Under the pieces are notes generated by a model. It did no database searches, had not been told where the DNA came from, and saw only the letters and a program-made list of their open reading frames with translations. The position numbers and the translations under genes were made by a program. Source: Pseudomonas sp. ML2-2023-3 (GTDB taxonomy: Bacteria > Pseudomonadota > Gammaproteobacteria > Pseudomonadales > Pseudomonadaceae). From it: a DNA stretch of 64,000 nt. Numbering within the stretch: the stretch's first letter is position 1; each line of letters opens with the position of its first letter. The stretch lies in contig NZ_CP146343.1 of the NCBI RefSeq assembly GCF_037055275.1, positions 3,878,501 through 3,942,500 on the forward strand. The letters are read 5' to 3'. Of this stretch, positions 344 to 13,905 are shown piece after piece.

Positions 344-2431
344 TTAGAAGCGGTAGTTGACGCCTAGGGTGAGCGAACGCTCGGGCGCGGCTTGACGACC
401 CCAAGGGGCGGTGTCGATACCGCGGAAATAGTATTCGCGGTTGAACAGGTTGCTGATGCCCGCCGATGCGGTCAGGACGCTCTTGTCTGCCAGCGGGAAC
501 TCACGTTCCACGGCCGTGTTCCAGACCCAGTACGCAGGCAGCTCACCCACACTGGCCGAGGCATTTTCATCGCGGGTATTCGCGGCATCGGTGTAGGCCT
601 TGCTGATGTACAGGCCGTCAAGGTTGTAGGTCCAGTGCTCGGCAAAACGGTAACGGGCGTCAACCATGAACTGGTTGCGCGAGGAGTACGGCACCTCGTT
701 GTCTGTGTATGTGCCATTGCGTTGTTTGGCATCGAGGTAGGCATAACCGGCATGCAGGTCCAGATCACGCATGGCTTGCGGCGTCCAGAAGATATCGGTC
801 TCGAAACCCTGGTGACGCGTGCTGCCAAGGTTGTCGAAGCGGTCGGTCGTGGCGTTATATGAAATCTGGTCGTCGAAGTCGATGCGGTACAGATTGAAGT
901 CGACGCGCATGCCGTCCCACGGGGTGTAGCGCACACCGGTCTCGTAGTTCCACGCCAGCTCGGCCCCCACAGCACCCTCCTTGACGATCTGCGTAACTTG
1001 GGGCGGACGCAGGGACTTCTGGGCGTTGGCGTAGACATACCAGGCATCGTTCGCCTGATAACCCACAGTCAGGCCCGGCAGCCATTCCTCGGATTTGTTT
1101 TCGCGCTCGAACCCGGTGATGCCGTCGCTGTAATTCATGCGGGCGTTTTCATAGCGCACGCCCGGCGTGATGGTCAGGCGGTGATCGAGCAGACTGATTG
1201 CGTTGCTGATGTAGAAGGCACGGGCGTTGTCATCGAACTTCCAGTCGCGGAACGGCGCCGTCACGCCGGTCGCGAGGCTCTGGCGATTGACCTTGTAATC
1301 GATGTCTTCGCTGACATAGCGGGCACCGAGCAGCCAGGTCTGGCCAACGTTGTCGCCATCGACCGTGGCACTGATGCGCGGCTCCGTCCCCCATACTTTG
1401 AAATCACGAGGGCCGTCCTGTTTGGTGACTGCCGTTCCGTCCGGTGTGAACGGCAAGCCGACCACGAAGTTGCGGTAACTGTTGTGGGCGAAGTTGGTCC
1501 AGCTGAACTCCACCGAGTCGAAAGGCCCCATGGCGCCCAGGCGCTGGGTGTAGGTGCCCCAGACGCGATTGGTGTCGCCCTCGAAGCGGTCCAGTGGGCG
1601 CGTAGACTGGCGCGGATCATCCTTGTAGTCCTTCACGCTGAGCGCGCCGGCCAAGTCCATGTCGGCCTTGTAGTGCTGCACACCGAAGCCCAGATCACGA
1701 TCGTCGTCGATGTTCCACTGACCCCGCAGGCGGTAGTTCTGAACATCGGTGTCGGAGTGCTCGCGACCGTATTCACCGCTCAGAGTGTTGATATCCAGTT
1801 GCAAGCCGAAGTTGTCGGTCAGGTAACCACCGGTGCCCAGATAGGTGTCCCACAACTGGCGCCCGCCAGGGTTGAATGTAGTCCTCTCCTGCAAAGTGGT
1901 CTCCCACTCACGCGGAATCGGCTTGCTGATGAAGTTGATGACCCCGCCTACGTTGTTCGGGCCGTATTGCACCGCTGCGCCCCCGCGCACGATATCAATA
2001 CGATCGACCGTGGCCATGGTCATTGGAAACAGCGACAGGCCCGTCTGGCCGTAAGGTGCCAATGCCAGAGGGATGCCATCGGACAAGGCCTGGATCCGGC
2101 CGCTGCGGCTCTCATAGAGACCGCGAACAGAAATCTGCGGCAAGGCGCCGGTGCCGGTTTCATCAAAAATCTTGATCCCGGGGACCCGCTGCAAAGCGTC
2201 GTCCAGACCGCGGACGCTGGCTTTTTTCAGGTCGCTGGAATCGACGACACTACGACTACCGGCGTAAGTACGCACGTCCTGATCGCTGGCTGCGCCGAGA
2301 ACGTCCCCCTGAATCGTCATGGGTGCCAGTTCCAGACTGCTGACGGGGGGTTGCTCAGCAGCCAGGGCGGCATGGCAAATGCCCAGTGTGATGAGACTGA
2401 GTGAAAAGTGTAGGTATGTTGTTGTTTTCAT
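344..2431 (-). CDS. TonB-dependent siderophore receptor (FecA-like, no signalling domain)
   Basis: A 695-residue outer-membrane receptor that imports a ferric siderophore using TonB energy. A signal peptide of about 24 residues ends at ALAA. A plug domain follows (residues about 55-165) with the DALQRVPGI and VRGLYESRSGR motifs and the IDIVRGGAAVQYGPNNVGGVINF segment that precedes the barrel. The 22-strand barrel ends in the terminal aromatic residue (NYRF) used by the BAM machinery. There is no N-terminal STN domain, so unlike FecA at 15292-17754 it should not signal to an anti-sigma factor. It begins 17 bp after the aldolase gene on the same strand. Expression probably depends on the Fur-controlled promoter in front of that gene. 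The ligand cannot be read from sequence; the neighbours suggest a citrate-containing carboxylate siderophore. Confidence 0.9.
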   Translation of the reverse strand: MKTTTYLHFSLSLITLGICHAALAAEQPPVSSLELAPMTIQGDVLGAASDQDVRTYAGSRSVVDSSDLKKASVRGLDDALQRVPGIKIFDETGTGALPQISVRGLYESRSGRIQALSDGIPLALAPYGQTGLSLFPMTMATVDRIDIVRGGAAVQYGPNNVGGVINFISKPIPREWETTLQERTTFNPGGRQLWDTYLGTGGYLTDNFGLQLDINTLSGEYGREHSDTDVQNYRLRGQWNIDDDRDLGFGVQHYKADMDLAGALSVKDYKDDPRQSTRPLDRFEGDTNRVWGTYTQRLGAMGPFDSVEFSWTNFAHNSYRNFVVGLPFTPDGTAVTKQDGPRDFKVWGTEPRISATVDGDNVGQTWLLGARYVSEDIDYKVNRQSLATGVTAPFRDWKFDDNARAFYISNAISLLDHRLTITPGVRYENARMNYSDGITGFERENKSEEWLPGLTVGYQANDAWYVYANAQKSLRPPQVTQIVKEGAVGAELAWNYETGVRYTPWDGMRVDFNLYRIDFDDQISYNATTDRFDNLGSTRHQGFETDIFWTPQAMRDLDLHAGYAYLDAKQRNGTYTDNEVPYSSRNQFMVDARYRFAEHWTYNLDGLYISKAYTDAANTRDENASASVGELPAYWVWNTAVEREFPLADKSVLTASAGISNLFNREYYFRGIDTAPWGRQAAPERSLTLGVNYRF

Positions 2432-2448
2432 TTATCTACGTCGACTCG

Positions 2449-3216
2449 TTATTGCTGTTGGAGAGAATGCAGGCGGGCTTTCAATGCGTTATGCAGCAAG
2501 CCACGGTCTTCACCGGCCAGAAAACTGCGCACACCCCGAGCTCGCCAAAACGCGTTCTGTTCAGCGGTGCGGGGGTTGGCGCAAAAAGGTACTTCAGCGG
2601 CGAGGCAGGCGTCGGCCATGCCTTGCAGCATTTGCCAGACGTGAGGGCTGAGCGGGTCAGGCCCCAGATCGAGATCAAGGGCCAGATCCAGGGCGCCCTC
2701 CATGATCATGCCGACTCCCGGCAGTAGCAGGATTTCGCCCAGAGCGTCGACCCCTGCGCGGCTTTCAATCATGGGAACAATCGGTGTCTGACGGTTGGCC
2801 AGCTCGATGTATTCGGGTAATGGCACACGACCGAATCCGGTGATGCGCCCCCCTGTTATTCCGCGGTTCCCCAAGGGCGGGAAACGGGTGGCTTCGATGG
2901 CGCGCTGAACCTGCGCGGCACTTTCGGTACGTGACAGGACAATGCCTTCGATACCGGCATCCAGTGCCCTGCCGATCAGCTTTTCGTCAACGTGGGGCAG
3001 GCGCAGCCAGGGAGAAATGCCGGCAGCCTCACAGGCCCGAATGCAATGCATGAGGTCTTCTTCGGAGCGCAGCAAGTGCTCAAGATCGAGGATTACAAAG
3101 TCATACCCGGCAAACGCGAGCATTTCACAGAGCATGGGTGAAGGCAGGGAATTGAGCATGCCGTAAACGCTTTTCCCGTTTTGTAGCAGGGAAAATACCG
3201 GAGAGGTTCTGATCAC
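2449..3216 (-). CDS. HpcH/HpaI-family aldolase, SbnG-like (possible siderophore citrate synthase)
   Basis: HpcH/HpaI aldolases are metal-dependent class II enzymes acting on pyruvate or oxaloacetate. The protein shows the family's GYDFVILDLEH motif near residue 45, the EGIVLSR strand, the PPLGNRG motif and PMIESRAGVDALGEIL. SbnG of the staphyloferrin B cluster is a family member that makes citrate from oxaloacetate and acetyl-CoA. Position at the head of a receptor/ATP-grasp operon behind a Fur box fits that role better than catabolism. An upstream ATG at 3264 would put the Fur box inside the gene. I prefer the GTG at 3216, which has AAGGA nine bases upstream and gives 255 residues, the family's usual size. 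A GTG at 3222 is a weaker alternative. The aldolase family is clear; the citrate synthase role is inferred. Confidence 0.8.
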   Translation of the reverse strand: MIRTSPVFSLLQNGKSVYGMLNSLPSPMLCEMLAFAGYDFVILDLEHLLRSEEDLMHCIRACEAAGISPWLRLPHVDEKLIGRALDAGIEGIVLSRTESAAQVQRAIEATRFPPLGNRGITGGRITGFGRVPLPEYIELANRQTPIVPMIESRAGVDALGEILLLPGVGMIMEGALDLALDLDLGPDPLSPHVWQMLQGMADACLAAEVPFCANPRTAEQNAFWRARGVRSFLAGEDRGLLHNALKARLHSLQQQ

Positions 3217-3249
3217 TGACACAGGTCCTTTGAGCGAGGAAACACTGAA

Positions 3250-3268
3250 GCCAATAATAATCATTCTC
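3250..3268 (-). promoter_or_regulatory. Fur box upstream of the siderophore operon
   Basis: Read on the minus strand, this 19-mer matches the Fur consensus GATAATGATAATCATTATC at 14 of 19 positions. It overlaps a plausible -10 element (TTTACT lies about 17 bases upstream as a -35). It sits 34 bases before the chosen GTG start. The rest of 3269-3492, up to the divergent sngA gene, holds A+T-rich promoter-like sequence and no gene. Confidence 0.7.
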
Positions 3269-3492
3269 AGATAGGAGTAAACGATTTTTATTATCGAATA
3301 GCGATATTCGTGATGGAGTGCATAAAAAAACGTTGCTGCCCGTAAATGGCTGGCTAAACGCCAGTGCTTTCTTGAACTTCAGACGCTGAGCTGTGGAGTA
3401 CTTGGTCATTTGCACATAAATAGCGATACTGCCGATAAGCCATCATTCAAGCTGCAAGGCTCAATTGCGCTCTGGAATCTGAGAATCTCCCT

Positions 3493-5685
3493 ATGGCAAG
3501 CACTTCCAGCTCAGACTTCTTCACCATCAATCTTGGCACTCGCCCTGCAAGGGCATACAGAATCCCCGCTCCCCCCACTCAAAGCGTGAGTGGGGCTTCG
3601 GTCTCGTCGGCGTCTGCTGAAGGCGCTGTCGCAGCGCGCTGGTTAAAGAAAGGCCAACCCCTTTCGGTCGGCAACTTCCTGATCCCGGGTGGGTTAATTT
3701 ACACAACGCTGTGCGTAGATCCCCAATCCGCCTTGTGTGAGCCATCGCTTATCAATACCTGGCTCAAGCTTTGGCCTGAAAACGTTGACTCATCTTCATC
3801 ATTGATGACCTATTGGCCAGACTACAAAACCATATCTGCACAAGCTCGACGCGGGTATGTGCAATGGCTGGCAGAGGGCCGTTGCGATCCTCGGGCTGAT
3901 ATCGGGTACGTGTTCATCTTTTTCTACGGGCTGGAGCGACGCGCCCTGATAGACACAGGCGATGATCAAGAAGCTATTGACGACCTGCCGGATATTATTG
4001 AGGCAGTCGAACATCTGCTCGGTATCTATGGCTCAAACAGCTCGTTGCGAGGCTATGCAGAAAGTTTTCTGGATTATCTGGGCCATTCGCAAGTAGACGA
4101 AAAACTGTATTTACACTCTCCGCCAGTCACCTCTGCAGCGCGATCCAGTATGCCAATGGGGCTGAGAGTCGGCCTCGGGCAAATGGCTATCAATCAGTAT
4201 CCGGTTAACGGGCAATGGGCTTTGGCCTGGGCCCTCTCAGACCCGGACATTACACGACGCACCCCTGCAACTCGTTGCCCGGACTTGCTGGCCACTCTGT
4301 TTATTGATGAGTTTGAGCGGGTCTATCCCGATGGCATTGTGCTGAGCCATAACAAAACGAAGCTCAAGCACGGTTACCGCACCGCTTCGAGAGCGGTTGG
4401 CGCCCCAGTGATGGATTTGGGAGAGATTCCCGATGTGACAGCCAGCTCGCTGAATCGCAAAAAGCTTCAGTTCTTGCTCGACCGCTGCTCCAGTGATCTG
4501 GACGGGTATAGCCGTTTTATTGGCCGCTACCCTGAAAACGCGCAGAAGCTTGAAGGTTTACTTCAACTGCCCATCTCACTATGGCCATCAACCCTGCGCG
4601 ATGAGCTGGAGCGCTTGAAAGCCCGTATAGAAGATGACCTGGAAGTCATGACGTTTGCAGATCTGGGCAAACGCTTCAACAGTGCCGGTGTTTTGTCCCG
4701 CCCGCTGCTGCTGGCCATGGCCCGGGCTTTGGAATCCTTGCAAATAGGCATGGAACCCGACGTGCTGGCGGGCAGCAGGACACCCAAGCCTGATGACTGC
4801 ATTGCCCTGTTTGTCACACTGCCTGACGATGGTGCACTTCGGGCAACACCGGCTTATAACGCGGCGTGTCTGACGCTGGACCTGGCTAGCGCCGTAACGG
4901 TTGCCGACGGAAAAATATCGGCAGAAGAAGTATCACTGCTGTTGAACCAGATCGATGCCTGGCAGCATCTGAGCATTGCTCAGCGCAAGCGTTTGAAAGC
5001 TCACCTGGGTATTCAACTGCAACAACCCCCCACGCTTGTAAGCCTCAAAAGCAGACTAGAACCCTTGGCAATCACAGAGAAGCAGGCAATCGCCCACTTC
5101 CTTGCGAGCCTTGCCCAGGCAGATGGTTGTGTCAGTGCTCAAGAGGTGAAACTACTGGAACGGGTCTACAAAGTCCTTCAGCTGGATCCTCAGTCCCTTT
5201 ACGGCAACTTGCATGTTGCTACTGCGTCACGGGCGTTCTCGGAACACTTCGGCGTACCGCTGACCACCCATGAACCGCAACTCATGCCTGAATTAGGTGG
5301 TGTGGTGCTCAATCTGGATCGCATCGCCCTGCTGCAGCGGGAAACCGAGGCGGTCTCGGCATTACTGGCTAAAGTGTTTACCGAAGAACCGGTCATCGAG
5401 CCTGAGCCTGAGCCAGCCCCCCAGGTGAGCGAAACGCAAGATGATGCCGCCGTCATCATCCCGGGGCTTGAAGGTGACCATCTTGCATTCCTGAGGCTGC
5501 TGCTCTCCCGCCCCCAGTGGAGCCGCTCAGAGCTGGAAGACAGCGCCAGCGATATGGAATTGATGCTCGACGGAGCTCTGGAACATATCAACGAACTGGC
5601 TTATGAACACTTCGACATGCCCATTACCGAAGGTGAAGAGCCCGTCGAAATCAACCCGGACATTCTGGAAAAATTGACCCTATGA
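3493..5685 (+). CDS. sngA: Shango-type TerB-domain protein (SngA-like)
   Basis: A 730-residue protein. An N-terminal region (residues about 55-200, from GNFLIPGGLIY onward) fits the TerB-N domain. Two acidic TerB-type helical segments follow, each with the ADGxxSAEEV/ADGCVSAQEV signature (about residues 470 and 543). TerB modules use such Asp/Glu residues to hold metal. An acidic Glu-Pro linker (EPEPEPAPQ, about 636) leads to a C-terminal helical TerB-C-like part. Its stop overlaps the start of the next gene by 4 bp (ATGA). TerB plus BREX-type ATPase plus DExH helicase is the published composition of the Shango defence system. In that system the TerB protein is required for protection, but its molecular role is not known. 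Domain limits are by eye. Confidence 0.8.
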   Translation: MASTSSSDFFTINLGTRPARAYRIPAPPTQSVSGASVSSASAEGAVAARWLKKGQPLSVGNFLIPGGLIYTTLCVDPQSALCEPSLINTWLKLWPENVDSSSSLMTYWPDYKTISAQARRGYVQWLAEGRCDPRADIGYVFIFFYGLERRALIDTGDDQEAIDDLPDIIEAVEHLLGIYGSNSSLRGYAESFLDYLGHSQVDEKLYLHSPPVTSAARSSMPMGLRVGLGQMAINQYPVNGQWALAWALSDPDITRRTPATRCPDLLATLFIDEFERVYPDGIVLSHNKTKLKHGYRTASRAVGAPVMDLGEIPDVTASSLNRKKLQFLLDRCSSDLDGYSRFIGRYPENAQKLEGLLQLPISLWPSTLRDELERLKARIEDDLEVMTFADLGKRFNSAGVLSRPLLLAMARALESLQIGMEPDVLAGSRTPKPDDCIALFVTLPDDGALRATPAYNAACLTLDLASAVTVADGKISAEEVSLLLNQIDAWQHLSIAQRKRLKAHLGIQLQQPPTLVSLKSRLEPLAITEKQAIAHFLASLAQADGCVSAQEVKLLERVYKVLQLDPQSLYGNLHVATASRAFSEHFGVPLTTHEPQLMPELGGVVLNLDRIALLQRETEAVSALLAKVFTEEPVIEPEPEPAPQVSETQDDAAVIIPGLEGDHLAFLRLLLSRPQWSRSELEDSASDMELMLDGALEHINELAYEHFDMPITEGEEPVEINPDILEKLTL

Positions 5686-6977
5686 GCACTATTCGAACAA
5701 AAGATCGCGATGCGCTTATTCAATCACTGCGTGCTGGCGTTGTACCGCGCGTGGGTCAACACCTGATCCAGGTTGGACGTGTCGGTGAGCTGGATGCTCT
5801 GCTCAAGGACGTGGATAGTTTGGCGGACGGTGGCTCGTCATTTCGGGTAGTGATCGGCGAATACGGCGCAGGCAAGACCTTCTTTCTGAATCTGGTTCGT
5901 GCAATTGCCATGGAGCGCAAGCTGGTCACCCTGCACGCAGACTTGAACCCGGACCGACGTTTGCACGCCAGCGGCGGGCAGGCCCGGTCGCTCTATGCTG
6001 AACTGGCGAAAAACATGTCCACTCGCGCAAAACCGGACGGTGGCGCGCTGCAGGGTATCGTCGAAAAGTTCATATCCCAGGCAAAAGCAGAAGCCAAGGT
6101 ATCGGGCGTTAGTACCGAAAACGTCATCCAGGCACGCCTCAATGAACTGACTGAAATGGTCAACGGGTATGACTTTGCACACGTGATTGCGGCCTACTGC
6201 CGTGGCTTTGATGAGGGCAATGAGCAGCTCAAGGCGGATGCCATTCGCTGGTTGAGGGGGGAGTTTTCGACAAAAACCGATGCACGAGCGGCCCTCGGGG
6301 TACGGACAATTGTTGACGACGCTTCGATCTACGATCAGCTCAAACTGTTATCCCGATTCGTGCGTTTGGCCGGCTATGCCGGATTGATGGTTTGCCTTGA
6401 TGAGCTGGTGAACCTGTACAAGCTGGCCAACACCCAGGCCCGAAACGCCAACTATGAGCAGATCCTGCGCATTCTCAACGACTCCTTGCAGGGATCCACA
6501 CAAGGATTGGGGTTTGTCCTGGGGGGTACGCCTGAGTTCCTGATGGATACTCGCCGCGGTTTGTTCAGCTACCCTGCCCTTCAATCCCGGTTGGCGGAAA
6601 ACGCGTTTGCCAAAAGTGGCCTGGTGGATTTGTCCGGGCCGGTTCTGCGCCTGACCAGCCTGACACCTGAAGACTTTTACGTATTGCTGCAAAAACTGCG
6701 ACACGTGTATGCCTCTGGGGATCCCCAGAAGTACTTGCTGCCCGACGAAGCCTTGCCGCAATTTATGGCGCACTGTCATCAACGTCTTGGGGAAGCCTAT
6801 TTCCGTACACCCCGCACAACGATCACAGCCTTTATCAACCTGCTGGCTATCCTTGAGCAGAACCCGGGTACGGACTGGCGCGAATTGATTGGTAGCGTTG
6901 AAGTGGCAAGGGACAACGGTGGCGCATCCGACCTGACCGTGGAGCAGGACGATGAACTTGCCACCTTCGAACTCTGA
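5682..6977 (+). CDS. sngB: Shango-type BREX-like ATPase (SngB-like, DUF2791 family)
   Basis: A 431-residue P-loop ATPase. Walker A is GEYGAGKT at about residues 59-66. A Walker B-like strand ending in LMVCLDEL is near 235, and a sensor-like GFVLGGTPEFL segment near 280. The N-terminus (RDALIQSLRAGVVPRVG) and the overall arrangement match the ATP-binding proteins annotated as BREX-system ATP-binding or DUF2791, related to BrxC/BrxD. In a Shango system it would form the ATPase partner of the helicase and the TerB protein. It overlaps sngA by 4 bp and sngC by 26 bp, so the three proteins are almost certainly translated together. No transmembrane or nuclease motif was seen. Confidence 0.82.
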   Translation: MSTIRTKDRDALIQSLRAGVVPRVGQHLIQVGRVGELDALLKDVDSLADGGSSFRVVIGEYGAGKTFFLNLVRAIAMERKLVTLHADLNPDRRLHASGGQARSLYAELAKNMSTRAKPDGGALQGIVEKFISQAKAEAKVSGVSTENVIQARLNELTEMVNGYDFAHVIAAYCRGFDEGNEQLKADAIRWLRGEFSTKTDARAALGVRTIVDDASIYDQLKLLSRFVRLAGYAGLMVCLDELVNLYKLANTQARNANYEQILRILNDSLQGSTQGLGFVLGGTPEFLMDTRRGLFSYPALQSRLAENAFAKSGLVDLSGPVLRLTSLTPEDFYVLLQKLRHVYASGDPQKYLLPDEALPQFMAHCHQRLGEAYFRTPRTTITAFINLLAILEQNPGTDWRELIGSVEVARDNGGASDLTVEQDDELATFEL

Positions 6978-9234
6978 CTCCTGCTCTTTCAGCCTTCTCG
7001 ACACCCGGATTCAACGCTGGATCTGGGATGAAGGCTGGACATCTCTCAGGGATGCCCAGGAGCAGGCTGTTCCCGCTTTGGTCGACGCCAATCAGGATGT
7101 GATTATTGCTGCAGCCACCGCAGCGGGTAAAACCGAGGCGGCTTTCCTGCCGATTCTGACCCACCTACTCAATCACCCCGATGTACCAGGCTCGGTGCTG
7201 TATATCAGCCCTCTCAAAGCGCTGATTAACGATCAATGGGATCGCTTGGGTCGCCTGTGCGAGCAGTTGGAAATCCCGGTAGTTGCCTGGCACGGGGATA
7301 TTTCAGCCAGCAAGAAACACCGCTTCCTGAAATCACCTGAAGGTGTGCTACTCATCACACCGGAATCCCTGGAAGCGCTTTTTGTAAATCGAGGTTCCAA
7401 CCTTGGCGCAGTGTTCAAAAACCTGCGCTACATCGTCGTTGATGAATTGCATGCCTTTATTGGCAGTGAGCGCGGCAAACAACTGCAATCGCTGATGCAC
7501 CGCGTCGAATTGGTGGTCGGTCGAACCTTGCCCAGGGTCGGGCTCTCGGCAACGCTGGGTGATATGAAGATGGCCAGTGAGTTTCTTTGCCCTCGTCGCG
7601 CAGAGGGCGTCAAGATCATTGAGTCCAGGAATGCGGGCCAGAAACTTCAGATCCAGGTAAGAGGCTACATCCTGTCCCCGATGTGCAAACTGCTCGAAAC
7701 CGGGGATGAACCTGAAACAGACTCCGATGAAGAACCTGAAGATCAGAGCACACCTGATTTTGCTATCGCCGAGCATCTGTACAAGGTACTCAGAGGTAGC
7801 AATAACCTGGTCTTCCCCAACAGCCGCGGCCAGGTTGAGGTTTACGCGGACCGGCTTCGTCGATGCTGTGAACGGGATGCCGTGCCCAATGAGTTCTGGC
7901 CCCACCACGGCAGTCTGTCCAAGGATCTGCGCGAGCAAACCGAGCATGCCTTGAAGTCCGGGGAATATCCCGCCACAGGCATCTGCACATCAACCCTGGA
8001 GCTGGGTATCGACATTGGTTCGATCAAAAATGTCGTACAGATCGGCTCCCCGCCCTCGGTCGCGAGCCTTCGTCAACGCCTGGGGCGCTCCGGCAGGCGC
8101 CCCGGTGAACCCGCCATTTTGCGTGCTTACTGCAAAGAGCCGATGCTAACAACCAACTCCACCCTTTCGGACCAGTTGCGCCAAGGGTTGGTACAGACCA
8201 TCTCCATGATTCGTCTGCTCACCCAGTCATGGTTTGAGCCGCCACGTACTCAAGGTGTGCATGCCTCCACACTCGTTCAGCAGTGCCTTTCCATCATTGC
8301 CGAATGCGGGGGTGCTACTGCGCACGAGTTATGGCGGCGCCTGGTTACGGACGGTGCGTTTACCCGAACCGAAAAAGCAGACTTTGTTGAACTGCTCAAA
8401 AACCTCGGTGCAAAAGAGCTCATCACACAAGAAAGTTCGGGCCTGTTGCTGCCAGGCAACCTTGGCGAGCGCTTGATCAACCATTACGAGTTTTACAGTG
8501 CCTTCACCAGTGATGAGGAGTTTCGACTGGTCTGCGCAGGCAAACCTTTGGGCTGCGTTCCGGTCAGCCGCCCCCTGACGAAGGATCAGCGAATCATATT
8601 TGGCGGCCGCCGCTGGCAAGTTCAGGACGTTGATCTGGAGGCCAAAGTGATTGTTGTGTCCCCCTCTCGTGGCGGTGCTCCTCCTCATTTTGAGGGACTG
8701 GGCGCCTTGATTCACGACCGGGTCAGGCAGGAGATGCGAGCACTGCTTACTGAAAACACACCCTGCCCTTTCATTGACCGCACAGCCCAGGTATTGCTGG
8801 ACGAAGCGCGACAGACGTTTGCTGCTCTTGGTCTGGCGGAACAGCACATCATAAAAAAAGGCAGCAATTGCCAGATCGTTAGCTGGCTGGGTGACTACGC
8901 CAATGACGCCCTGTGTTTGTTGCTTAATCACGTAGGGCTGAGTTGCGGGACGGAGGGATTGCTGATTTCAGCTGAAGCCGACACCAACGAGATGATGCAA
9001 GCACTTGAACAGGTGGCGGCGCTGGACCCAAGCGATCTAAAAACCCTGCTGGCAGATGTTGAGAACATGCGCCGGGAAAAATGGGACTGGGCGTTACCTG
9101 AGTCGCTGCTTATGAAGTCCTTCGCTTCTACCTCCCTGGATATTGAGGCGGCTATAGGTTTTGCGAAGGCGCAGACTCAATGGTCAGGAACATCCGAAGC
9201 TAAAGCTGACCAGTATCAGGCTGCAAAGAGTTGA
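6952..9234 (+). CDS. sngC: Shango-type DExH superfamily 2 helicase (SngC-like, Lhr-related)
   Basis: A 760-residue superfamily 2 helicase. Motif I is AATAAGKTE (about 54-62), the Q-like aromatic patch is GWTSLRDAQ (about 28), motif II is DELH (about 163) and motif III is SATLGD (about 198). The second RecA domain has STLELGIDIG (about 346) and motif VI QRLGRSGRR (about 375). This is the Lhr/BrxHII style of DExH helicase. A C-terminal part of about 350 residues follows with no motif I recognise. The start overlaps sngB by 26 bp. The best reading is the nucleic-acid-translocating subunit of a Shango anti-phage system. A helicase alone could serve repair, but the gene trio argues against that. 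Confidence 0.85.
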   Translation: MNLPPSNSDSCSFSLLDTRIQRWIWDEGWTSLRDAQEQAVPALVDANQDVIIAAATAAGKTEAAFLPILTHLLNHPDVPGSVLYISPLKALINDQWDRLGRLCEQLEIPVVAWHGDISASKKHRFLKSPEGVLLITPESLEALFVNRGSNLGAVFKNLRYIVVDELHAFIGSERGKQLQSLMHRVELVVGRTLPRVGLSATLGDMKMASEFLCPRRAEGVKIIESRNAGQKLQIQVRGYILSPMCKLLETGDEPETDSDEEPEDQSTPDFAIAEHLYKVLRGSNNLVFPNSRGQVEVYADRLRRCCERDAVPNEFWPHHGSLSKDLREQTEHALKSGEYPATGICTSTLELGIDIGSIKNVVQIGSPPSVASLRQRLGRSGRRPGEPAILRAYCKEPMLTTNSTLSDQLRQGLVQTISMIRLLTQSWFEPPRTQGVHASTLVQQCLSIIAECGGATAHELWRRLVTDGAFTRTEKADFVELLKNLGAKELITQESSGLLLPGNLGERLINHYEFYSAFTSDEEFRLVCAGKPLGCVPVSRPLTKDQRIIFGGRRWQVQDVDLEAKVIVVSPSRGGAPPHFEGLGALIHDRVRQEMRALLTENTPCPFIDRTAQVLLDEARQTFAALGLAEQHIIKKGSNCQIVSWLGDYANDALCLLLNHVGLSCGTEGLLISAEADTNEMMQALEQVAALDPSDLKTLLADVENMRREKWDWALPESLLMKSFASTSLDIEAAIGFAKAQTQWSGTSEAKADQYQAAKS

Positions 9235-9289
9235 ACCCAAGGCATTAGCAAGGCCCGATGACCGGTTAATGATGTGGATGTAGGTCGAT

Positions 9290-9316
9290 GTAGTGTGCTG
9301 TATTACACATCACTAC
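9290..9316. promoter_or_regulatory. Inverted repeat in front of the antitoxin gene
   Basis: GTAGTG at 9290-9295 is mirrored by CACTAC at 9311-9316, with a TGTATTACAC core between them. The repeat lies 12 bases before the antitoxin ATG. ParD/RelB-type antitoxins usually repress their own promoter through such repeats, so this is a likely operator. That function is inferred from position only. Confidence 0.4.
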
Positions 9317-9328
9317 GCCGAGGCTTCC

Positions 9329-9568
9329 ATGCCCGTTATGTCTATACGCCTGCATGACGAAATGGCCGACACCCTCGCCAATTTGGCAAAAGCCACGGGC
9401 CGCAGTAAATCGTTTCTGGCCATCGATGCGCTACGGGATTATCTGGCACGTGAGGCGTGGCAACTAGCCGAGATCCAGCAGGCGCTGGAAGAAGCAGATG
9501 CGGGGGACTTTGCTGCCGAGGAGGAAGTCACCGTCACGCTGAACAAATGGTCCGTCCATGAAGGTTGA
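9329..9568 (+). CDS. Ribbon-helix-helix antitoxin (ParD/CopG-like), now orphaned
   Basis: A 79-residue protein beginning MPVMSIRLHDEMADTLANLAKATGRS, a ribbon-helix-helix DNA-binding fold: a short beta strand (MSIRL), then two helices with the KSFLAIDALRDYL segment. The C-terminal tail (EEADAGDFAAEEEV) is the acidic region that normally wraps the toxin. The ATG at 9329 is preferred over an in-frame one at 9293 because the family begins at the MPVMSIRL strand. Its stop overlaps the start of a RelE/ParE-type toxin that survives for only about 17 codons. The protein therefore probably persists as an autorepressor or scavenging antitoxin. Confidence 0.8.
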   Translation: MPVMSIRLHDEMADTLANLAKATGRSKSFLAIDALRDYLAREAWQLAEIQQALEEADAGDFAAEEEVTVTLNKWSVHEG

Positions 9569-9608
9569 GTGCCTGCGCACGACACTTAAACATCTGGATG
9601 ACCAGGCC
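9558..9608 (+). pseudogene. 5' stub of a RelE/ParE-family toxin gene
   Basis: An ATG overlapping the antitoxin stop opens MKVECLRTTLKHLDDQA, which matches the usual N-terminus of Pseudomonas ParE toxins (MKVEWL..AL.NLDDEA). After that the similarity stops. The frame runs into the terminator and the tRNA gene, so about 80 residues, including the catalytic or gyrase-binding part, are gone. This looks like a deletion that joined the toxin start to the tRNA-proximal terminator. Confidence 0.65.
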
Positions 9609-9631
9609 CCCCGCACGCCAAATTTCAGGCA

Positions 9632-9662
9632 AAAAAAAGCCGCTATCGCTAGCGGCTTTTTT
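9632..9662. terminator. Bidirectional rho-independent terminator
   Basis: A stem of AGCCGCTA paired with TAGCGGCT around a four-base loop is flanked by a run of A on the left and a run of T on the right. It can therefore stop transcription from both sides: the antitoxin side on plus, and tRNA-Asn on minus. Confidence 0.85.
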
Positions 9663-9668
9663 ACTATC

Positions 9669-9744
9669 TGGCTCCACGACCTGGACTCGAACCAGGGACC
9701 CAATGATTAACAGTCATTTGCTCTACCAACTGAGCTATCGCGGA
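9669..9744 (-). tRNA. tRNA-Asn (anticodon GTT)
   Basis: Read on the minus strand, the 76 nt fold as a cloverleaf. The acceptor TCCGCGA pairs with TCGTGGA, the D-arm begins AGCTCAGTTGGTAGAGC, the anticodon loop is CTGTTAA, and the T-arm has GGTTCGAGTCC. Discriminator G and an encoded CCA follow. The anticodon GTT reads Asn codons. The terminator at 9632-9662 lies just beyond its 3' end. Confidence 0.96.
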
Positions 9745-9809
9745 ATGGCGTCTATCTTACTGATATAAAAAGAGAAGTCAACACTTTCGATGACTTCTCA
9801 GTGCATTAT

Positions 9810-11006
9810 TCAGATGACCTGAACAATAGCGTCGGTTACCGCTTCAATGTTGCGCTGATTCAAAGAAGCCACGCAGATTCGGCCAGTGTCCAGGGCGTAG
9901 ATGCCGAACTCGGTACGCAGGCGCGTCACTTGCTCAACGGTCAGGCCGGAGTACGAGAACATGCCGCGCTGACGCGCAACAAAGCTGAAATCATGCCCCG
10001 GAGCCTTTTTCGACAGCAGCTCTACCATTTGCAGGCGCATACCGCGAATGCGCAGTCGCATTTCAGCCAGTTCTTCTTCCCACATGGCACGCAGCTCAGG
10101 GCTGTTGAGCACAGCGGCGGCGATGGTTGCACCGTGGGTCGGCGGGTTGGAGTAGTTGGTGCGGATCACACGCTTGACCTGGGACAGAACGCGAGCGCTC
10201 TCATCCGCAGACTCGGTGATGATTGACAGTGCCCCTACACGCTCGCCGTACAGCGAGAACGACTTGGAGAACGAGCTGGAAACAAAGAAGCTCAGCCCCG
10301 ACTCAGCAAACAGGCGCACTGCCGCGGCGTCTTCGTCGATACCGTCGCCAAAGCCCTGGTAGGCCATGTCCAGGAACGGAATCAGGCCTTTGGCCTTGAC
10401 CACGTCCAGCACGTTCTGCCAGTCAGCCGGGGTCAGGTCGACACCGGTCGGGTTGTGGCAGCACGCGTGCAGCACAACGATGGAGCCGGCTGGCAAGGCA
10501 TTGAGGTCTTCGAGCATGCCGGCACGGTTGACGTCATGGCTGGCAGCGTCGTAGTAGCGGTAGTTCTGAACCGGGAAACCCGCGGTTTCGAACAGAGCAC
10601 GGTGGTTTTCCCAGCTTGGATCGCTGATGGCAACAACAGCATTTGGCTGCAGTTGCTTGAGGAAGTCAGCACCGATTTTCAGCGCGCCAGTACCGCCCAC
10701 GGCTTGAGTGGTGATTACTCGACCAGCAGCCAACAGGGGTGAGTCAGCACCGAACAGCAGTTTCTGAACAGCTTGGTCGTAGGCAGCAATACCATCGATC
10801 GGCAAGTAGCCGCGCGACGCATGCTGAGCAACCCGAATCGTTTCGGCTTCGACAACGGCACGCAAGAGCGGAATTCGTCCCTCTTCGTTGCAGTAAACAC
10901 CGACCCCCAGATTCACTTTGCTGGTACGGGTATCGGCGTTAAATGCTTCGTTGAGGCCCAGGATAGGATCGCGTGGTGCCATTTCGACAGCGGAGAACAG
11001 GCTCAT
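9810..11006 (-). CDS. Aromatic/aspartate-type aminotransferase (class I, PLP)
   Basis: A 398-residue PLP-dependent transaminase of the AspC/TyrB subgroup, moving amino groups between aspartate or aromatic amino acids and 2-oxoglutarate in the cytoplasm. Recognisable elements are the N-terminal VNLGVGVYCNEEG motif, the ACCHNPTGVDL loop, DMAYQGFGDG, the SSSFSKSFSLYGERVG segment carrying the Schiff-base lysine (about residue 247), and the C-terminal GRICVASLNQRN with the substrate-binding region. It lies divergent to uvrB, the same pairing as PA3139-PA3138 in P. aeruginosa, which supports a Pseudomonas core-genome setting. Exact substrate preference cannot be told from sequence. Confidence 0.93.
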   Translation of the reverse strand: MSLFSAVEMAPRDPILGLNEAFNADTRTSKVNLGVGVYCNEEGRIPLLRAVVEAETIRVAQHASRGYLPIDGIAAYDQAVQKLLFGADSPLLAAGRVITTQAVGGTGALKIGADFLKQLQPNAVVAISDPSWENHRALFETAGFPVQNYRYYDAASHDVNRAGMLEDLNALPAGSIVVLHACCHNPTGVDLTPADWQNVLDVVKAKGLIPFLDMAYQGFGDGIDEDAAAVRLFAESGLSFFVSSSFSKSFSLYGERVGALSIITESADESARVLSQVKRVIRTNYSNPPTHGATIAAAVLNSPELRAMWEEELAEMRLRIRGMRLQMVELLSKKAPGHDFSFVARQRGMFSYSGLTVEQVTRLRTEFGIYALDTGRICVASLNQRNIEAVTDAIVQVI

Positions 11007-11330
11007 TATTACGGCGGCTCTGAATGGAGAATGGAGGGGGTGACAACGCTCCAGCCGATTGCACTAGAGCGGTGCACAAACGGGGAGCAAGTATAAGGCC
11101 GATCACGATTCGGGCAACAGGCTATTACCGGTTTTGGCTAAGTATTTGAGTTTATTTTCAGGCCACTGGTCGAATTGCAATCTTTGCCAAGATCACCGTG
11201 TCAGAGCAGCGCCTTGAAACAGTCAGACATGACCTCCATATTTACCCGTATCCTGTTTTTTTCCTGCGGCTTGAGTCGCATGCACTTATAAGGGTCAACG
11301 CCTTTATAGAAGCAAACCCCGAGGTCCTTC
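11007..11330. promoter_or_regulatory. Divergent promoter region between aminotransferase and uvrB
   Basis: No gene was seen in these 324 bp. The region must hold the start signals for both flanking genes. I looked for a LexA box (CTG-N10-CAG) in front of uvrB and found no good match; the nearest CTG-rich stretch at about 11250 lacks the second half. Damage induction of uvrB through LexA is thus not supported here. Confidence 0.4.
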
Positions 11331-13346
11331 ATGCCCGATTTCCAGCTTGTTACCCGCTTCGAGCCTGCGGGTGATCAACCCGAAGCCATTCGCCAGATGA
11401 TCGAAGGCATCGAAGCCGGCCTGTCGCACCAGACCCTGCTCGGGGTAACGGGTTCGGGCAAGACCTTCAGCATCGCCAACGTGATCGCACATGTGAATCG
11501 TCCCACACTGGTACTCGCGCCAAACAAGACCCTGGCCGCGCAGTTGTATGGCGAGTTCAAGTCGTTCTTCCCAAACAACGCGGTGGAGTACTTCGTTTCG
11601 TACTACGACTACTACCAGCCCGAAGCCTACGTGCCCTCCTCCGACACTTTCATCGAGAAAGACGCCTCGATCAACGACCACATCGAACAGATGCGTTTGT
11701 CCGCGACCAAGGCGCTGCTGGAGCGCAAGGACGCGATTATCGTCACCACGGTGTCGTGCATTTATGGTTTGGGCAGCCCGGAAACCTATTTGAAGATGGT
11801 GTTGCACGTCGATCGCGGGGACAAGCTCGACCAGCGCGAGCTGTTGCGCCGCCTGGCCGACCTGCAATACACCCGCAACGACATGGATTTCGCCCGTTCG
11901 ACATTCCGGGTGCGTGGCGATGTGATCGACATTTACCCGGCAGAGTCGGACCTTGAGGCCGTGCGCATCGAGCTGTTCGATGATGAAGTCGAGAGCATCA
12001 GCGCTTTTGACCCATTGACCGGCGAAGTCATACGCAAGATGCCGCGCTTTACTTTCTACCCAAAAAGCCACTATGTGACCCCGCGCGAAACCCTGCTGGA
12101 CGCCGTCGAAGGCATCAAGGAGGAACTCAAGGAGCGTCTTGAGTACCTGCGCGCCAATAACAAACTGGTCGAGGCACAGCGACTGGAGCAGCGCACCCGT
12201 TTCGATCTGGAAATGATCATGGAGCTGGGCTACTGCAACGGCATCGAAAACTACTCGCGCTACCTTTCGGGCCGCGAGTCCGGTGCGCCGCCACCGACTT
12301 TGTTCGACTACCTGCCGGCGGATGCCTTGCTGGTGATCGACGAGTCTCACGTCAGCGTGCCGCAGGTAGGCGCCATGTACAAAGGCGACCGCTCCCGCAA
12401 AGAGACCCTGGTGGAGTACGGCTTCCGTCTGCCTTCGGCACTGGACAACCGGCCGATGCGCTTTGATGAATGGGAGCGCATCAGCCCGCAAACGATTTTC
12501 GTCTCGGCCACGCCGGGTAACTACGAGGCCGAACATGCGGGCCGTGTGGTCGAGCAAGTGGTGCGTCCGACCGGCCTGGTCGACCCGCAAATCGAGATTC
12601 GCCCGGCACTGACCCAAGTCGACGACTTGCTGTCCGAGATCGCCAAGCGCGTCGCGCTGGAAGAACGGGTGCTGGTCACCACGCTGACCAAACGCATGTC
12701 CGAAGACCTGACCGACTACCTGGCCGACCACGGCGTACGCGTGCGTTACTTGCACTCGGACATCGACACCGTGGAACGGGTCGAGATCATTCGTGACCTG
12801 CGTCTGGGGGTGTTTGATGTGCTGGTGGGCATCAACTTGCTGCGTGAAGGCCTGGACATGCCCGAAGTGTCGCTGGTGGCAATTCTCGATGCCGACAAGG
12901 AAGGCTTCCTGCGTTCGGAGCGCTCACTGATCCAGACCATTGGCCGTGCGGCCCGTAACCTTAATGGCCGGGCAATTCTCTATGCAGACCGGATCACCGG
13001 CTCGATGGAACGAGCCATTGGCGAAACCGAGCGTCGTCGCGAGAAACAGATCGCGTTCAACCTCGCCAACGGCATCACCCCCAAAGGGGTGTTCAAGGAC
13101 GTTGCCGACATTATGGAAGGCGCAGTAGTACCGGGTTCGCGCAGTAAAAAGCGCAAAGGGATGGCCAAAGCCGCCGAAGAGAACGCCAAGTACGAAAACG
13201 AACTGCGCTCGCCGAGCGAGATCAGCAAGCGCATTCGCCAGCTGGAAGAAAAAATGTACGCCCTGGCCCGCGACCTGGAGTTCGAGGCCGCCGCGCAAAT
13301 GCGCGACGAAATCGGCAAGCTCAGGGAGCGGTTGTTGCAGGTTTAA
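11331..13346 (+). CDS. uvrB: UvrABC excinuclease subunit B
   Basis: A 671-residue damage-verification helicase of nucleotide excision repair; it is loaded by UvrA and recruits UvrC. Walker A is GVTGSGKT (about 38-45). The aromatic-rich beta-hairpin region ([21 protein letters not shown]) follows. The DESHVSVPQ motif carries the Walker B acid, with [20 protein letters not shown] (motif VI) and a C-terminal UVR coiled coil ([22 protein letters not shown]) that binds UvrC. Length is as expected for the family. A GAGG sequence sits about nine bases before the ATG. Confidence 0.98.
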
Positions 13347-13349
13347 CCG

Positions 13350-13421
13350 TTCACGAGCAGGCTCGCTCCCACAGGGGCACAGAAAAAAATTCAATTAAGT
13401 GGGAGCGAGCCTGCTCGCGAA
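13350..13421. repeat. REPIN-type inverted repeat, 'GTGGGAGC' family
   Basis: Two 23-base arms (13350-13372 and 13399-13421) are inverted copies with two mismatches, centred on the sequence GTGGGAGCGAGCCTGCTCGCGAA. They are separated by 26 bases. This is a common Pseudomonas extragenic palindrome and sits directly after uvrB, where it may also help end or stabilise the transcript. Confidence 0.85.
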
Positions 13422-13482
13422 GTCTTCCAGGTAGCGCGGTTTATCCAGTAACTGCGCGTTAACGGCGGGTTCAGACTCCCAC

Positions 13483-13905
13483 TTAAACCGCCACTGCCGC
13501 CACCGCCTCTACCTCAAACAGCATCTCATCCAGCGCCAGTCGCGGTACCGGGATCAATGTGCAGGCCGGTGCTGGCAGTTCACCCCACACCCGCGAGATC
13601 TCAGCACCCAAAATCTGCAGACGCTCCATGCTGTGATCTACGATCAATACTGTGATCTTGGCGACGTCCTTGATCTGCGCATCCGCTGCTGCCAGGGCAA
13701 TCTGCACGTTGGCAAATGCCTGGCGCACCTGCTCGGCGAAGTCGGGTGACAACTGGCTTTCGGCGTTTTCACCGCCCTGGCCTGCGGTGTACACCAGGCG
13801 CACATTGGGCGCCAGACGGGCGACATGGGAATAGCCGTTGGGCGCAGGGTCATACAAGCCTGCCGGGTTGAGTAATTGCACTGCAGGGTTAGAGTTCTTA
13901 TCCAT
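13483..13905 (-). CDS. RidA/YjgF/Rid-family deaminase
   Basis: A 140-residue member of the Rid family, which hydrolyses reactive enamine/imine intermediates or acts in amino-acid and nucleotide-derived catabolism. Visible features are the beta-strand RLVYTAGQGGENAES, the FAEQVRQAFANVQIALAAADA helix and the PAPACTLIPVPRLALDEMLFEVEAVA C-terminus. The usual RxT catalytic motif (Arg in RVECxA-type) is replaced by PACTLIPV, so it may belong to a non-RidA subgroup. The ATG at 13905 is preferred: an in-frame start at 14103 would overlap the divergent MFS gene and add non-family sequence. Confidence 0.8.
   Translation of the reverse strand: MDKNSNPAVQLLNPAGLYDPAPNGYSHVARLAPNVRLVYTAGQGGENAESQLSPDFAEQVRQAFANVQIALAAADAQIKDVAKITVLIVDHSMERLQILGAEISRVWGELPAPACTLIPVPRLALDEMLFEVEAVAAVAV

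Follow-up and report, generated by a model that had tools for sequence, protein, structure and literature searches.

Sequence of the sngABC operon

The stretch of DNA analysed here, referred to as the window, comprises 64,000 nucleotides of the Pseudomonas sp. ML2-2023-3 chromosome (contig NZ_CP146343.1, positions 3,878,501 to 3,942,500; genome size 5.41 Mb). Between positions 3493 and 9234 it contains three intact, adjacent and co-directional plus-strand open reading frames (ORFs), each starting with ATG, that have the A-B-C gene order of the Shango anti-phage defence system. Analysis of these genes and their surroundings indicates that they very probably form a complete, intact-looking Shango operon, carried on a ~6.2-kb insertion beside a tRNA-Asn gene, and that this operon comes from a clade whose SngA protein has no membrane anchor. 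The genes are:

3493 to 5685, plus strand: sngA, a TerB_N-TerB-TerB_C protein of 730 amino acids without a predicted transmembrane helix (PADLOC, Pfam and hydropathy)
5682 to 6977, plus strand: sngB, a BrxC/BrxD-family P-loop ATPase of 431 amino acids, with Walker A (GEYGAGKT) from residue 59 and Walker B (CLDE) from residue 238
6952 to 9234, plus strand: sngC, an Lhr/BrxHI-like DExH helicase of 760 amino acids, with motif I (AATAAGKT) from residue 54, DELH at residues 164-167 and motif VI (QRLGRSGR) from residue 375

A first-pass annotation of this DNA, made from the sequence alone, had proposed a complete Shango locus of three overlapping genes for a TerB-N/TerB/TerB-C protein, a DUF2791 ATPase and an Lhr-like DExH helicase, and both the gene positions and the family assignments agree with the ORF coordinates and with the Pfam and PADLOC matches. 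When the suggested PADLOC check was run, all three proteins matched their Shango profiles almost over their full length: SngA at 1.4e-98 (residues 9-729), SngB at 4.2e-186 (residues 3-431) and SngC at 1.1e-291 (residues 11-739). The Shango profiles score well above those of the related bacteriophage exclusion (BREX) proteins, with 617 bits for SngB versus 151 bits for BrxD, and 968 bits for SngC versus 421 bits for BrxHI; SngB also falls below the 350-bit cut-off of the NCBIfam BrxD equivalog (147.6 bits), and an NCBIfam search gave no match for SngA. In Pfam, SngA contains TerB_N (9.1e-51), TerB (9.3e-8) and TerB_C (2.4e-34) domains, SngB belongs to the BrxC_BrxD family (PF10923, 5e-156; earlier named DUF2791), and SngC has DEAD and Helicase_C domains. 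The catalytic motifs of the window ATPase and helicase are intact; across homologs the catalytic residues of SngB Walker A and B (81 sequences) and of SngC motifs I, II, III and VI (77 sequences) are 99-100% conserved, and some positions adjoining them are variable. No nuclease domain was seen.

The sngA and sngB genes overlap by 4 bp (5682-5685) and sngB and sngC by 26 bp (6952-6977), overlaps that suggest translational coupling and do not force it, as had been claimed. SngB was scanned for in one genome per species across 84,980 species, and the figures given for named loci refer to the best 80 of 568 confirmed loci. An ORF lies upstream of sngB in 79 of these 80 loci, the other having none, and every one of the 79 shares exactly 4 bp with sngB (seven of them encode fewer than 650 amino acids), so the overlap in the window is not due to chance. 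An A/B overlap is not universal in Shango: the annotated Klebsiella and E. coli copies have a 3-bp gap between A and B, and a 4-bp overlap between B and C.

A clade of SngA proteins without a membrane anchor

A hydropathy scan gave no transmembrane (TM) peak in the window SngA, SngB or SngC, and SngA is thus without the N-terminal anchor predicted in most of the homologs examined. In an alignment of 73 SngA sequences of at least 650 amino acids (72 named loci plus the window), 70 have an extra stretch near the start of the protein (median 89 residues), and 61 have an N-terminal TM peak, either two or more (44 sequences) or one (17 sequences), two of the 61 being doubtful (L166 and L172). For five of the 12 sequences with no peak (L119, L141, L144, L167 and L169), another upstream frame encodes hydrophobic stretches, and some of these cases may be frameshifts. 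Of the named relatives that have the locus, Pseudomonas sp. NKUCC02_KPG (L093) is the nearest; neither in L093 nor in the window was a hydrophobic stretch found in any frame upstream of sngA, where stops lie close by.

A protein search for SngA, considered for the best 120 of 1228 passing clusters, found a TM peak in 98 clusters and none in 22. Fifteen of these 22 make up the clade to which the window belongs (62-100% identity), and in three of the fifteen the N-terminus is incomplete; all 12 N-terminally complete clusters of at least 62% identity, the window's own included, are anchorless, most starting with a MAS...SDFF-like sequence. Outside this clade a TM peak is present in 98 of the 105 clusters; the remaining seven have their start within the soluble part or further downstream, and miscalled genes or incomplete sequences may account for this. 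A tree of the shared SngA region (94 rows), built by a quick method that gave long-branch warnings for rows outside the clade, places 14 clade members on one branch with a Shimodaira-Hasegawa-like approximate likelihood-ratio test (SH-aLRT) support of 100. The anchor state must have changed at least 4 times on the SngA tree, where 21 of 90 rows are anchorless, and at least 5 times on the SngB tree, where 9 of 68 rows are anchorless after doubtful rows are excluded. Other lineages also seem to have lost or replaced the anchor, the P. syringae group, for example, with short repeats. In four loci of that group (L122, L141, L147 and L123) a repeat of ~21 residues, resembling AIGRYARFSRPSSNLVGGTQP, occurs two or three times at the anchor position of other SngA proteins, and in L123 anchor and repeats are both present.

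The first-pass annotation had called this Shango divergent on account of two TerB signatures and a Glu-Pro linker. It is divergent, because SngA has no N-terminal anchor, but neither of those reasons holds. The two signatures are DG...E motifs, at about residues 472-479 and 544-551, that both fall within a single Pfam TerB domain (464-568). The Glu-Pro stretch is a linker or loop of low confidence, variable in length and different even in the nearest relative. Both features are minor. The predicted structure of SngA has a predicted local distance difference test (pLDDT) score of 79.5, and a Foldseek search with the whole model gave no match at E<=0.001 (best 9.6e-3, PDB 2h5n).

SngA is the fastest-changing part of Shango, with a median identity to the window of 51.9% (71 rows), compared with 84.5% for SngB (79 rows) and 65.4% for SngC (75 rows), all computed without L093. 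Loss of the anchor could have inactivated the operon and left its genes coasting, but such degeneration is unlikely. The hydrophobic SngA start in 61 of 73 sequences, and by eye in E. coli NCTC86, a Klebsiella plasmid and an Aeromonas plasmid, would fit this explanation, as would the cut-short toxin gene that adjoins the operon. Against it, all three sng frames are open, as they also are in a third species (G365, L202), and the anchorless form, with its mostly shared N-terminal sequence, is common to clusters down to 62% identity. In addition, the ratio of non-synonymous to synonymous change (dN/dS) versus L093 is below 1 in all three genes, at 0.15 in sngA (from small counts of 17 synonymous and 8 non-synonymous changes), 0.06 in sngB and 0.13 in sngC. 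Since dN/dS is below 1, the window SngA looks like a lasting soluble variant rather than a broken gene. As judged from these sequences, the window has an ordinary complete Shango with one unusual feature, the stable anchorless SngA clade, of which no earlier report was seen; the literature searched on Shango, in a search that was not exhaustive, does not mention a membrane anchor on SngA, nor does it make such an anchor part of how Shango is defined. In the main text of Johnson et al. (2023; PMC10250203), the sole mention of 'membrane' is about gasdermin.

The operon also bears signs of recent exchange. Synonymous divergence between the window and L093 is 0.03 in sngA, 0.07 in sngB, 0.16 in sngC and 0.17-0.31 in four flanking genes, and identity in 400-base bins is 96.5-99.2% over positions 3201-6800, ~98% at 7201-8000 and 89-96% left of 3200. 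Therefore, sngA-sngB were probably swapped recently between the two lineages. At another locus (L088, genome G051, 5795-12868), a sngA match of full length is followed in tandem by a fragment of sngB, a partial second sngA, and then sngB and sngC, as if two sngA alleles were undergoing exchange.

Insertion site and flanking genes

The surroundings of the operon contain the following features:

3403 to 9614: ~6.2-kb segment without counterpart in two near relatives, carrying sngABC, an antitoxin gene and a truncated toxin gene; its left edge lies at 3372-3403 and its right edge at 9614-9618
3402 to 3452, plus strand: candidate promoter-like block upstream of sngA, common to the window, L093 and L202 (alignment)
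9329 to 9568, plus strand: ribbon-helix-helix (RHH)/RelB-like antitoxin gene (PF01402, 7.3e-6; NCBIfam RelB-like, 2.1e-11, 43.9 bits, below the 50-bit cut-off)
9560 to 9625, plus strand: first codons of a putative ParE/RelE-like toxin gene, identified by inspection and cut short at the right edge of the insertion
9669 to 9744, minus strand: tRNA-Asn (gtt), right flank, at the same place in L093, L202, L203 and L204
344 to 3264, minus strand: left flank, a TonB receptor (344-2431) and an HpcH/HpaI aldolase (2449-3264), the end of a siderophore-type cluster extending left of the window
L186 10825 to 19986, together with window 344 to 3264: siderophore-type cluster directly left of the insertion
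9810 to 13346: right flank, an aminotransferase-like gene (9810-11006, minus strand) and uvrB (11331-13346, plus strand), named by inspection

Nine further genomes (L203-L211) were fetched by nearness in the flanking aminotransferase gene. Two of these (G265, L203, and G277, L204) share the left flank of TonB receptor and aldolase but lack Shango: similarity to L203 runs up to window position 3402 and resumes at 9615, with 129 bp between, and similarity to L204 runs up to 3372 and resumes at 9618, with 34 bp between. Because both are clean empty sites, sngABC and the small antitoxin gene constitute a ~6.2-kb insertion between the siderophore-type cluster and tRNA-Asn. In the other seven genomes (L205-L211) the right flank is present, and six also contain stretches from further than 11.8 kb to the left of the window; neither the TonB receptor, the aldolase nor Shango was found within the stretches fetched from these seven, so the region left of tRNA-Asn is variable as a whole. 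By Pfam, the siderophore-type cluster includes two IucA/IucC synthetases, a major facilitator superfamily (MFS) protein, a decarboxylase, a weak ATP-grasp match, the aldolase and the TonB receptor.

The locus occupies the same place in L093, which is ~95% identical over 9.6 kb, and in L202, where SngA is 81%, SngB 94% and SngC 87% identical, so within its own small species group (three species, one site) it is stable. L093 has an intact antitoxin/toxin pair where the window toxin gene is cut short, and L202 has no match to the antitoxin gene and a different ORF in its place. Upstream, the aldolase ORF and sngA are divergent and 228 bp apart, and the block at 3402-3452 holds a weak promoter-like pair, TTGGTC (3402-3407) and GATACT (3425-3430) separated by 17 nt, which is a candidate only (7 of 12 matches in a by-eye count); a consensus promoter scan missed this pair and gave a plus-strand site at 3230-3258 instead.

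Distribution of Shango

SngB was matched in 20 of 199 Pseudomonas genomes, 19 of them at Shango strength and one with a weak BREX-like score (6e-34), and in 1 of 14 control genomes; SngA was matched in 44 of 398 Pseudomonas genomes, three of these only as pieces or split matches. Shango genes are patchy in the genus and not core, and, with the profile matches and the empty sites in two near relatives, neither of the outcomes that the first-pass annotation had set against its own reading (no match to Shango profiles, or core genes in all relatives) was found. An SngB-like gene is present in 695 of 72,556 plasmid records, including 452 from Klebsiella and 144 from Salmonella (545 predicted conjugative, 38 under 60% identity), and a search of 50,697 phage records gave no match. 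In E. coli, 437 of the 5426 genomes hold a match to 80% or more of a Klebsiella Shango operon, and sngABC has been described on some genomic islands of this species (PMC11096173). Of 144 proteins neighbouring Shango in Pseudomonas, three match a single GajA model and three a single GajB model, but the commonest Pfam families are mostly ordinary, which weakens this support from defence neighbours. At one locus (L083, genome G183, 10268-13769), a two-ORF insertion sequence, IS3-type by inspection, splits sngC near residue 181.

TerB domains are known from tellurite and stress systems, and SngC is related to Lhr-type helicases. Together with the stability of the locus at one site in three related species, this could point to a Ter-type role in stress responses or genome maintenance (under metal, oxidative or DNA damage) instead of phage defence, a reading that we consider improbable. 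The distribution described above is patchy and extends to many predicted conjugative plasmids, no terC- or terD-type gene is present among the close neighbours of the locus, and a homologous operon inhibits phages in P. aeruginosa and reportedly in E. coli (PMC10250203). That the locus is a BREX fragment or variant (brxD plus brxHI) beside an unrelated TerB gene is highly improbable in spite of the homology of SngB and SngC to BrxD and BrxHI, given the bit scores above, the 4-bp overlap of the TerB gene with sngB in 79 of 79 named loci with an upstream ORF, and the finding of no BREX gene (pglZ, methyltransferase or brxC) among the close neighbours, which were ten left-hand proteins (Pfam), the antitoxin and two right-hand genes (inspection).

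A proposed role for soluble SngA

Shango is an experimentally shown defence system: in P. aeruginosa PA14 it protects modestly on plates (10-100 fold), against many, though not all, of the phages tested, and strongly in liquid, and it has been reported in E. coli as well (Johnson et al., 2023; PMC10250203). Its mechanism is listed as unknown in a 2026 review (PMC12926258), and a literature search, which was not exhaustive, found none published. For the window copy, an anchorless-sensor variant whose anti-phage activity we infer from this kinship, the following division of labour can be proposed. SngA consists of a TerB_N half for which no fold match was recognised, followed by a TerB domain and a C-terminus resembling a winged helix; it would be the recognition or regulatory part, as it changes fastest. 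Upon infection SngA would license the SngB ATPase, and SngB would load or drive the SngC helicase on phage DNA, blocking phage replication; an ATPase-driven helicase block is favoured because no nuclease domain was seen. In ordinary Shango a tether of SngA to the membrane may place this machine at sites of DNA entry, and in the window's clade the same machine may work from the cytosol without the anchor.

It is possible, and we offer this only tentatively, that a long-lived Shango lineage moved from membrane to cytosol, where soluble SngA senses or acts on phage DNA untethered, with the anchor as a module that can be shed or swapped, perhaps altering the phages or the infection stage recognised. 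A natural, selected anchorless clade beside anchored forms asks whether Shango acts at the membrane (on DNA entry or through envelope sensing) or on cytosolic DNA. In this way anchorless SngA is a natural test of the need of Shango for the membrane, and the empty sites in two related species provide matched backgrounds.

Comparison with known systems

The Shango of PA14 in the cDHS1 hotspot is alike in having a TerB-like protein, an ATPase and a DEAD/DEAH helicase on a Pseudomonas chromosome, and the region described for cDHS1 also has a tRNA gene, in that case for proline (PMC10250203). Its site differs from the tRNA-Asn/uvrB site in the window. SngA of P. aeruginosa PA7 (L124, used as a stand-in for PA14) has a predicted anchor, whereas the window SngA has none. 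In P. fluorescens, a preprint on Gac/Rsm lists Shango among induced systems (PMC11888443).

The Shango systems of E. coli NCTC86 (L189) and of the Klebsiella plasmid pKGB1a (L187) have the same gene order and families as the window, but they are distant in sequence (the Klebsiella SngB is 61.5% identical to that of the window), their gene overlaps differ and by eye their SngA starts with one hydrophobic segment. Among more remote systems, TerB proteins of known structure (PDB 2ou3 and 2h5n) are comparable to the TerB domain of SngA only, and BrxD and BrxHI of BREX are homologous to SngB and SngC but score far below the Shango models. In a phylogeny of helicases, SngC falls into a defence clade described as 'potentially distinct', together with BrxHI, DruE and DpdJ (PMC12278908).
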